From contig JANQGP010000274.1 of the NCBI GenBank assembly GCA_028277265.1, positions 1 through 37,227 on the forward strand: a stretch of DNA of 37,227 nt, in the 5' to 3' direction. Origin of the DNA: Woeseiaceae bacterium (GTDB taxonomy: Bacteria; Pseudomonadota; Gammaproteobacteria; Steroidobacterales; Woeseiaceae). The first letter of the stretch is position 1. Each line of letters begins with the position of its first letter. The notes beneath the pieces are model-generated. The model made no database searches. It was given only the letters and a program-made list of their open reading frames with translations, and was not told the origin of the DNA. Positions 34,618-37,227 of this stretch are shown piece by piece. Made by a program: the position numbers and the translations under genes.

Positions 34618-34647
34618 AAAAAAAAGGGCGCCGGAGAACCGGCGCCC
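34618..34647 (-). terminator. Intrinsic (rho-independent) terminator
   Basis: Minus strand GGGCGCCGG-TTCT-CCGGCGCCC-TTTTTTTT: perfect 9-bp stem, 4-nt loop, U8. Confidence 0.92.
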
Positions 34648-34800
34648 GAGTTGATGCGGCAGGGGGGGAATTGCCGCCGGGCCATCGAGGCCCGTTCACG
34701 CCGAACACTGCCGGCGCATTTTCCGGTCCGGCCCGCCAGGTCGTCAGGGGGAGAGAAGATCCTGGCGGGTGTCCGACCGGAAGGGGACTCTGCAGGTGAG
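34618..34800 (-). ncRNA. Candidate structured 3'-UTR sRNA with C-rich loops
   Basis: Minus strand: long hairpin (34721-34782) with loop ATCTTCTCTCCCCCTGACGA; hairpin CGGGCC-N5-GGCCCG (34678-34694); hairpin GCGGCA-ATTCCCCCCC-TGCCGC (34656-34677); then the terminator. Confidence 0.5.
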
Positions 34801-34802
34801 GC

Positions 34803-35084
34803 TTACTCGTTTCCTGCAATCAGCGTAGAACTGGTGTCCGCCAGCCGGATATCAAGGTCTATCAGCACATCCCGTGCGATCGATTCCGCGGCGCGGGCCG
34901 CAGCGTCTTCGCTGGCTTTTTCCGCGATTCTGAGCGCGCTGGCCGCCGCATCTTCTGCGACCGCCGTGTTGGTGACGTCCCGGGTTTCCTTTGCAAGGGC
35001 ATCTTCCGCGGCAAAGGAAACGCCGATCAGGACGACCACCGCAGCAAGCAGCGCCAGGTGGTTTTCCAGATTCTTCAGTCTCAT
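34803..35084 (-). CDS. Small Ala-rich exported/membrane-anchored protein
   Basis: 93 aa MRLKNLENHLALLAAVVVLIGVSFAAEDALAKETRDVTNTAVAEDAAASALRIAEKASEDAAARAAESIARDV...; SD-like GAGGAAA upstream; sigma-54 promoter upstream and terminator downstream. Confidence 0.75.
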   Translation of the reverse strand: MRLKNLENHLALLAAVVVLIGVSFAAEDALAKETRDVTNTAVAEDAAASALRIAEKASEDAAARAAESIARDVLIDLDIRLADTSSTLIAGNE

Positions 35085-35147
35085 CGTCGTTTCCTCGTTT
35101 CAGTGTCAATTCTGCGTCGGCCTTTCGACCGTGTTCGATCATCGTAT

Positions 35148-35163
35148 TGCACAAGCCATGCCA
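35148..35163 (-). promoter_or_regulatory. Sigma-54 (-24/-12) promoter for the small Ala-rich gene
   Basis: Minus strand TGGCATGGCTTGTGCA against consensus TGGCACGN4TTGCA; GG and GC invariant dinucleotides correctly spaced. Confidence 0.7.
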
Positions 35164-35209
35164 AATCCGAAAACCTTTTTATTTCAGCAACTTAATCAGA
35201 AACAGGTGG

Positions 35210-35264
35210 TTACGAAAATCCGTAAATTACGAAAAATCGTGAGACTATTTACGGAATATCGTAT
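35210..35264. promoter_or_regulatory. Three tandem operator-like palindromes (candidate UAS for the divergent enhancer-binding protein)
   Basis: TTACGAAAATCCGTAA (35210-35225), TTACGAAAAATCGTGA (35227-35242), TTACGGAATATCGTAT (35249-35264). Confidence 0.65.
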
Positions 35265-35275
35265 AGACTGCGCAA

Positions 35276-37075
35276 ATGATCGCCCACCAGGACTATGAAT
35301 GGCTGTTTCGCAAGGCGCCCGTGATGTCCACCTCGATTGCGGAGGACGGTACCTACCTCGACGTCAATGACGCGATGCTGGAGCGCCTCGGCTACTCGCT
35401 CGAGGACATGGTGGGCAGACGGCCCGAGGATTTCGTCACGCCCGAAACTGCCGAGCGCATCGAAGGTGAAATGCGTCCGGCGATGCGCCGCCGCGGCAGA
35501 CTCGAAAACACGCCCGTGAGCTTCGTTACCGCAACCGACGAGATCGTCGACTGCGTGACGAACGCGTTCATCGAGTTCGACCGTGAAGGCGAGTTCGTCC
35601 GCACGATCGCGACGTACACCGAGGCGTCCGATCAGGCACGCGCGAACTACAAGTACCGTGCCCTGTACCGCTCGACCCCCGCCATGTTGCACACGGTCGA
35701 TGGCGACGGCCGCATCGTTACCGTGACCGACCACTGGCTCAGCAAGCTCGGTTTCACGCGCGACGAGGTACTCGGGCGCCCGGTGACCGATTTCATGAGC
35801 GTTGCCGACCAGCGCAAGTACCGCGACGGCCGACTCAAGGAGCTGATTGCCGAAGGCGAGTTCAACAACCTCGAGCGACAGATGGTCACCAAACAGGGTA
35901 CGACGATCGATCTCGTCATGTCGGCGATCCCGCACTACGACGAGGACGGCGCTGTCGATCGCCTGCTCGTCGCGTCCAAGGACGTGACGTCGCGCAACCG
36001 TGCCGAGCGCGAACTGCGACGCACCCTCGCGGAAAACGCCCGGCTGCGCGAAGAACTGCAGCTCGAACGCGACTATTTGCGCGAAGAGGTCAACGTCGCG
36101 ATGAACTTCGGACGCATCGTCGGGACGAGCCAGGCATTGCGGCGCATGTTGAAGAGAGTCGAGGCCGTTGCCGAGACGCCCGCCAGTGTCCTGTTGCAGG
36201 GCGAGTCAGGGGTCGGCAAGGAACTCGTCGCGAGGGCCATCCACAATCGCAGCCCGCGCGCCGACGGGCCGCTGGTCAAGGTGAACTGCGCCTCGATCCC
36301 GAAGGAGCTCTTCGAGAGTGAGTTCTTCGGGCACGTGAAAGGCGCTTTTACCGGCGCGCACCGCGATCGCATCGGTCGCTTCCAGCTCGCCGACGGCGGC
36401 ACACTCTTCCTCGACGAAGTGGGCGAGATTCCGATGGAACTGCAGGGCAAGTTGCTGCGCGTCCTCCAGGAAAGCGAGTTCGAACGGGTCGGCGACGACG
36501 TGACCCGATCGGTCGACGTACGTGTCATCGCGGCGACGAATCGCAATCTCGAGAAACTCATCGTCGAGGGCGAATTTCGGGAAGACCTCTTCTACCGGCT
36601 CAGTGTTTTCCCCGTCGAAGTCCCGCCGTTGCGAGAGCGCGGAGACGATATCGTGCAGCTGGCGCAGCACTTCCTCGAGCAAACCTGCAACGACTTCGGA
36701 CGCGAGCCGTTGACCCTGACGCGCAGTCACGCCGCCAGCCTGAAAGCGTACGACTGGCCCGGCAACGTTCGCGAACTCAAGAACGTCATCGAGCGTGCCG
36801 TCATCCTCTCGCCGGGCAAGGTGCTGCGACTGGACCTGTCCCTGCCCGGCGTGAGTCCGCAATCCGACGGCGCTGCGGCGCCGGAGTCGCAGGACGACGA
36901 TATCCTGACGGACAACGAGATGCGCGAGCTGCAGAAAGCGAATATCGTAAAGGCCCTGAAACGGGCCAATTGGAAGGTCTCCGGCACGGGCGGCGCGGCA
37001 GAGCTGCTCGGCGTCAGGCCGACGACCCTTGCGGACCGGATCAGGACGTTCCGAATCAAACGACCCGCGAAATGA
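35276..37075 (+). CDS. Sigma-54-dependent transcriptional regulator (PAS-PAS-AAA+-Fis HTH)
   Basis: [15 protein letters not shown] Walker A, GAFTGA loop, [13 protein letters not shown] Walker B, C-terminal Fis-type HTH; two N-terminal PAS-like repeats. Confidence 0.96.
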
Positions 37076-37227
37076 CACAGACAAAAACGAGCCTCGGTTT
37101 GCTGGCAGCCCTGCTGCTGGCCGTTTTGCCCGCGTTTGCCGCCGAAGAGAACCTGCCTGTCGGTGTGCGGGCCCTGCTCAACCTTCGCCAGCTGCCGGCC
37201 GACTCCCTGAGCATCTACGTCGAAGAC
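37072..37227 (+). CDS. Exported protein, probable N-terminus of D-alanyl-D-alanine carboxypeptidase/endopeptidase (PBP4/DacB-like), truncated at right edge
   Basis: Own translation from ATG 37072: [56 protein letters not shown] overlap with the regulator; not in the ORF track because there is no stop in the window. Confidence 0.55.

Follow-up and report, generated by a model that had tools for sequence, protein, structure and literature searches.

The window analysed here, a 37,227-nucleotide stretch of DNA from a Woeseiaceae bacterium, contains two divergent genes separated by a 191-bp intergenic region. The forward strand encodes a 599-residue enhancer-binding protein (EBP; 35276-37075) which, as delineated by its open reading frame (ORF) and Pfam matches (Sigma54_activat, PF00158, 3.4e-72; PAS_9; HTH_8), is composed of two PAS domains, an AAA+ sigma-54 interaction domain bearing the GAFTGA loop and a Fis-type helix-turn-helix. 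The reverse strand bears an ORF for a fast-evolving, 93-residue exported or membrane protein of no known family (34803-35084). The genome also encodes rpoN (PF04552, 1.3e-71) and hfq. The helix-turn-helix of the EBP is similar among 14 compared members, and the activator is distinct from PspF, NorR, NifA, GlrR and LuxO, since it falls below the NCBIfam equivalog cutoff for each, the best score being that for NorR (369.6 against a cutoff of 476). Immediately downstream, the start of a DacB/PBP4-like gene, assigned by eye (37072-37227, forward strand), overlaps the EBP stop codon through ATGA (37072-37075) and is a probable operon partner of the EBP. This overlap hints at a link to the cell envelope, though it is not evidence of one. 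A DacB/PBP4-like gene also follows the EBP at loci L113, L154, L156 and L208, and at L107 with one gene between.

The intergenic region bears the hallmarks of a sigma-54 promoter directed toward the small ORF. The -24/-12 element TGGCATGGCTTGTGCA (35148-35163, reverse strand) presents its GG and GC at 10-bp spacing, with a predicted transcription start near 35137, and three upstream activating sequences (UASs) lie 73-127 bp upstream of that start. The proximal UAS TTACGAAAATCCGTAA (35210-35225) matches TTACG-N6-CGTAA perfectly, while the middle TTACGAAAAATCGTGA (35227-35242) and distal TTACGGAATATCGTAT (35249-35264) sites each carry one mismatch. A sequence-only reading of this DNA had proposed the ORF, the EBP, the -24/-12 element and the UAS triplet, and each was recovered where it had been placed. 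It did not list the IHF-like site TTTCAGCAACTTA (35182-35194, forward strand), which differs by one mismatch from WATCARNNNNTTR and occupies the same position as in orthologs. A consensus scan found no sigma-70-like promoter inside the region. Taken singly, neither type of element is significant across the 37-kb window, where 7 -24/-12-like matches were counted against 5.7 expected and 12 UAS matches against 8.8 expected. Three UASs with at most one mismatch were reached in none of 20000 shuffles of the 191-bp region, and these shuffles, together with the conservation across loci described below, rule out a chance origin of the cluster.

Conservation was followed through 113 orthologous loci of a single order, which are related to one another so that counts among them are not independent, and many of the sampled genomes are draft assemblies. 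At nearly all of these loci, and down to 39% activator identity, a divergent -24/-12 element and the start of the activator are some 110 bp apart, with TGGCACG-N4-TGCA kept in the ortholog promoters. Measured from the -24 box, UAS matches are most frequent at -101/-100, -79 and -62 despite a varying length of the 5' leader, and are weaker in the more distant families. Conservation of the UAS and -24/-12 motifs among orthologous loci, the absence of which the sequence-only reading had named as a refutation, was thus observed, with near-fixed spacing of the sites. In about 105 of the 113 loci, the best match to the IHF consensus falls at -29 to -31 relative to the -24 box, and a match with at most one mismatch is present in about 100 loci, compared to about 10 in shuffles. 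Conserved palindromic repeats situated 70-150 bp upstream are among the features by which a sigma-54 enhancer-dependent promoter module is recognized, and they are present here.

As the distal UAS adjoins the EBP start codon (11 bp), the arrangement also suggests that the EBP controls its own gene. It could be argued from this proximity, and from the overlap of the EBP with the gene downstream, that the intergenic sites mainly drive an EBP-dacB operon with the divergent transcript as a by-product. However, the -24/-12 element is oriented away from the EBP, no other block is as well conserved in the other families, and the divergent transcript contains a covarying structure (below); we consider such an arrangement very improbable.

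Of 248 genomes sampled from the order, 126 have an EBP ortholog, in each case as a single copy (PAS-region search, E<=1e-30), and these are distributed among families f1, f2, f3, f5, f6 and f9. A sample of the whole class yielded the EBP in only 3 of 387 genomes, all three belonging to the same order, and thus gave no sign of a spread beyond it. A wider regulon is similarly not indicated: the stringent arrangement of UASs and promoter, for which a genome scan had been proposed, occurs only once in the window's genome, and matches to the UAS by itself do not outnumber those to a reversed control (52 versus 78). Hits of the site-plus-promoter pattern across the class look random. The module therefore looks single-target, and the divergent transcript is likely the sole target of a dedicated, self-contained predicted sigma-54 module. 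This much of the sequence-only reading, which had proposed such a module, is borne out by the unique pattern, by the presence of rpoN and by conservation. Its view that the small protein is the principal output needs revising, as this protein is variable and one genus lacks it.

The portion of the transcript that lies beyond the ORF is extensively structured. The 3' region (34803-34616) has a predicted folding energy of -97.4 kcal/mol (z = -5.4) and closes with the strong intrinsic terminator expected at the gene end (34618-34647, reverse strand), a 9-bp G+C stem (34647-34626) followed by eight T. Folding and covariation delineate four hairpins on the reverse strand, namely SL1 (34721-34782), the loop of which bears UCUUCUCUCCCCCU (34746-34759); SL2 (34698-34717), with a covarying stem; SL3 (34678-34694), a covarying stem formed by GGGCC/GGCCC in the window and most commonly by GGACC/GGTCC in relatives; and SL4 (34656-34677), formed by GCGGCA-loop-TGCCGC with a C-run in its loop. 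In an alignment of 27 sequences of family f1 spanning the four hairpins, changes on both sides were found in 15 of 24 pairs, 94.3% of alignment cells were paired compared to 85.5 +/- 0.7 in shuffles, and the covariation score was 0.342 compared to 0.178 when shuffled; none of 500 shuffles reached the observed pairing and covariation values, and sliding the pairing along the alignment reduced it to 20-44%. The stems vary while the SL1 loop CUCUCCCCC and the SL4 C-run are near-invariant.

A covariance model built from family f1 (R1; 147 positions) matches the window, a member of its seed, at 34654-34805 on the reverse strand with 94.6 bits, and finds non-seed f1 loci down to E = 2e-24. The element is single-copy in the window's genome, where the next match has E = 0.15, and it was present in all 8 tested genomes with the EBP and had no match in any of the 9 tested genomes that lack it. 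Most other families are beyond the reach of R1, and outside f1 the RNA is recognized by its place, its C-rich loops and its terminator only. Across the 113 loci, runs of at least five C number 210, compared to 17 G-runs, with 80 +/- 8.5 C-runs in shuffles, and the C residues in runs of four or more have a predicted unpaired probability of 0.73 compared to 0.29 for other C residues. The RNA matches no Rfam family at threshold; the nearest matches for the window, SorY (29.5 against 111) and suhB/mmgR (27.9 against 41 for suhB), fall below the gathering cutoff, and no family exceeded its cutoff in 14 further loci. At locus L197, a long inverted repeat, GGTGCCGGTGTTACGGTTTCGGT ... ACCGAAACCGTAACACCGGCACC, is found just after the RNA terminator, and its left arm is also present in L196.

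The protein encoded by the small ORF presents a different picture. No Pfam match was obtained for the window's protein and no NCBIfam match for it or four relatives, in keeping with the earlier failure to recognize its family from the sequence, and a search of the genome contigs with this protein recovered four close relatives only. The ORF product ranges from 30 to 115 residues across loci with little shared sequence, being about 45 or about 30 residues in other members of the window's genus and 85-115 residues at many other loci, and mostly begins with a signal or membrane segment. The ORF is nonetheless a real coding sequence under purifying selection, as dN/dS values of 0.03-0.47 in 22 close pairs of orthologs and a pooled pN/pS of 0.35 indicate, and the protein must accordingly matter too. 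In genus g21 of family f9, none of six genomes (L181, L186, L188, L191, L201 and L217) has a start codon with a Shine-Dalgarno sequence plus a stop codon before the terminator. These genomes keep the EBP, the promoter, the C-rich hairpins and the terminator, such that the g21 transcript is a noncoding RNA of about 140-175 nt made up of C-rich hairpins and a terminator.

A role for the small protein as the only functional product, with the 3' hairpins serving just to stabilize the mRNA and end transcription, would agree with the coding signature of the ORF and with its presence in most loci. We regard it as unlikely, as the module is maintained in the six g21 genomes that have no ORF, near-invariant loops on covarying stems are not needed of plain stabilizing hairpins, and the protein itself varies so widely in length and sequence. 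The best-conserved output of the module is the 3' RNA rather than the protein. The sequence-only reading had named this RNA, now seen to be a covarying structured element, among the outputs, but only as an appendage to a protein that proves the less conserved of the two. Two features expected of a dual-function RNA are present, an ORF under selection and a conserved RNA element outside it.

The locus is thus probably a single-target sigma-54 module with a dual-output transcript, of which the RNA would most likely act in trans and the protein would be accessory. The anatomy of the locus, its conservation, the covariation, the predicted accessibility of the loops, the co-occurrence with the EBP and the persistence of the RNA where the ORF has disappeared come directly from the analysis, and the dependence on sigma-54 and on IHF, the pairing in trans and the targets are what we infer. 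A signal sensed by the PAS domains would lead the EBP to bind the three UASs, IHF would bend the DNA between these and the promoter, and sigma-54 polymerase at 35148-35163 would produce a transcript of roughly 520 nt with its 3' end near 34618. This RNA would carry the ORF for the small exported or membrane protein followed by the 3' structured element, the CUCUCCCCC loops of which may pair with G-rich ribosome-binding sites (RBSs) and repress the mRNAs concerned, with those of TonB-dependent receptors as leading candidate targets. The protein, fast-evolving and lost in one genus, would be the accessory output.

Precedents for such pairing led us to look for G-rich RBSs. The C-rich loops of sX13 from Xanthomonas repress mRNAs that bear G-runs near the start codon (PMC3771888), and VcdRP from Vibrio cholerae encodes a 29-residue protein along with a pairing segment in which a run of four cytosines is essential, its targets being the mRNAs of sugar transporters (PMC8672173). 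A discovery scan of seven genomes for the complement GGGGGAGA at 2-11 nt before ATG gave about 22 readable ORFs. At least 7 of these, including one from the genome of the window, are TonB-dependent receptors, as judged from visual inspection and from their similarity to one another. An orthologous pair of genes at L258 and L240 (88% identical protein, aldehyde-dehydrogenase-like by eye) shares an identical RBS, GGGGGAGAGTGACGCATG, across two genomes and is a further target candidate. The association was then counted in G504, a family member resolved as a single 4.06-Mb contig, of which three 400-kb blocks (1.2 Mb; L259-L318) were sampled. GGGGG occurs at the RBS of 7 of 16 receptor genes, one of which was also in the discovery set, compared to 19 of 1006 others (p = 3e-8), and GGGG at 9 of 16 compared to 58 of 1006; receptors and other genes do not differ in GGAG, AGGA, GAGG or AGGAG.

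The interpretation of these counts is tempered by G080 (L319-L338), a control genome from the order that lacks the EBP. Both of just two receptors sampled there have GGGGG, and R1 has no match in G067, a genome of the same genus. The G-rich RBS therefore extends more widely than the module and is no proof of targeting, and its specificity to module genomes is unsupported by this control of two receptors. Receptor genes tend to have G-run RBSs even where the module is absent, possibly a general feature exploited by other C-rich-loop RNAs. The case for TonB-dependent receptors as targets of the RNA is suggestive.

The C-rich loops might instead bind a protein, the RNA functioning as a decoy in the manner of CsrB or CrcZ with no pairing to mRNA. 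A short motif repeated in 1-5 loops per RNA would suit this role, and sigma-54-driven RNAs do include those that titrate proteins, as GlmY sequesters RapZ (PMC6075780). Against this, no known regulatory protein that binds C-runs is indicated, C-rich loops have precedents in pairing, and the G-rich RBS is enriched in one gene class; a decoy seems to us improbable, and pairing in trans remains the favoured reading.

Several characterized systems share parts of this organization. The enteric SgrR-SgrS/SgrT system likewise has a dedicated neighbouring regulator and a short 5' ORF joined to a conserved 3' regulatory RNA with a terminator, the RNA being conserved and the ORF poorly so, to the point of loss in some species, but it has no array of hairpins with C-rich loops, and its targets, ptsG and manXYZ, are known (PMC4021124). 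No sequence relation to SgrS/SgrT was found, and membership is excluded by the regulator, here a PAS-AAA+-Fis EBP and not of the SgrR type. SgrR is not known to be a sigma-54 activator. VcdRP shares the combination of a small protein with a C-dependent pairing segment, but it is transcribed from an ordinary CRP-repressed promoter without an EBP and has one pairing site rather than several C-rich loops (PMC8672173). The sX13 RNA of the Xanthomonadaceae displays stable stems with apical C-rich loops, but no ORF has been reported for it, it always lies downstream of polA and a link to an EBP is not described (PMC3771888). The RNA described here also has C-rich loops, differing in number and arrangement from the three stems of sX13; its place is next to the EBP at each of the 113 loci rather than downstream of polA, and the Rfam search detected no homology. 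A similar promoter anatomy is that of glmY in the Enterobacteriaceae, a sigma-54 sRNA promoter with three UASs, IHF and the adjacent QseEF regulator genes, which differs in its UAS (TGT-N12-ACA), in the use of a two-component response regulator and in having no ORF (PMC6075780). By analogy, the module would work like SgrS/SgrT from a promoter like that of glmY, while being a member of neither, because regulator, UAS sequence and RNA differ. In PspF-pspA and other divergent EBP-target modules, the EBP diverges from its target and the UASs overlap the control region of the EBP itself, as they do here, although the target of PspF is a protein operon. PspF is not known to carry PAS domains, and its UAS differs. 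Overall, the module appears to represent a new family of bacterial RNA regulators with two outputs, possibly acting to limit outer-membrane nutrient receptors.

A different feature is seen in the small proteins of other families. Many of these begin, after the signal peptide, with a motif such as IDEIVVTAPR, MEEVTVDGA or MEELVVTAPR, sometimes twice per protein (for example L172, L176, L177 and L179, within the range L164-L213), which is similar to the TonB boxes found on receptors encoded by the same genomes (LEEIVVTAQK, LEEVVVTGSR). A regular expression for this motif was written after seeing the examples, and a position-specific scoring matrix (PSSM) from 24 receptor boxes is the fairer test. 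By this PSSM, p<0.01 against their own shuffles is reached by 16 of the 37 small proteins from other families, compared to 1 of 27 in f1, and 51% of the other-family proteins pass a threshold passed by none of 44 exported controls. The window's small protein has no TonB box (p = 0.33), so the TonB-box small protein is a hypothesis for the relatives and not for the protein of the window. We tentatively entertain an order-wide, sigma-54-switched double brake, in which the C-rich loops of the RNA would block receptor synthesis and a small periplasmic protein would compete for TonB through its TonB box. It is conceivable, if still doubtful, that the one or two boxes per protein in several families (IDEIVVTAPR, MEEVTVDG) serve this purpose, and equally speculative that the protein arm has been changed in other lineages, as in the window, or lost. 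If true, the double brake would be an analogue of SgrS/SgrT for outer-membrane transport, and the TonB-box small protein an uptake inhibitor of a kind for which no report was found in the literature searched.

Dual-function RNAs are few. SgrS/SgrT and VcdRP are without a sigma-54 activator module, whereas the family described here would bring its own EBP and extends over several bacterial families of one order. Its natural variants, from an ORF of about 100 residues through a 30-residue peptide to no ORF, offer a way to study how an mRNA turns into a regulatory RNA, or a regulatory RNA into an mRNA. If the receptors are indeed its targets, TonB-dependent uptake in these bacteria, most of them uncultured, would have a candidate regulator in this module.
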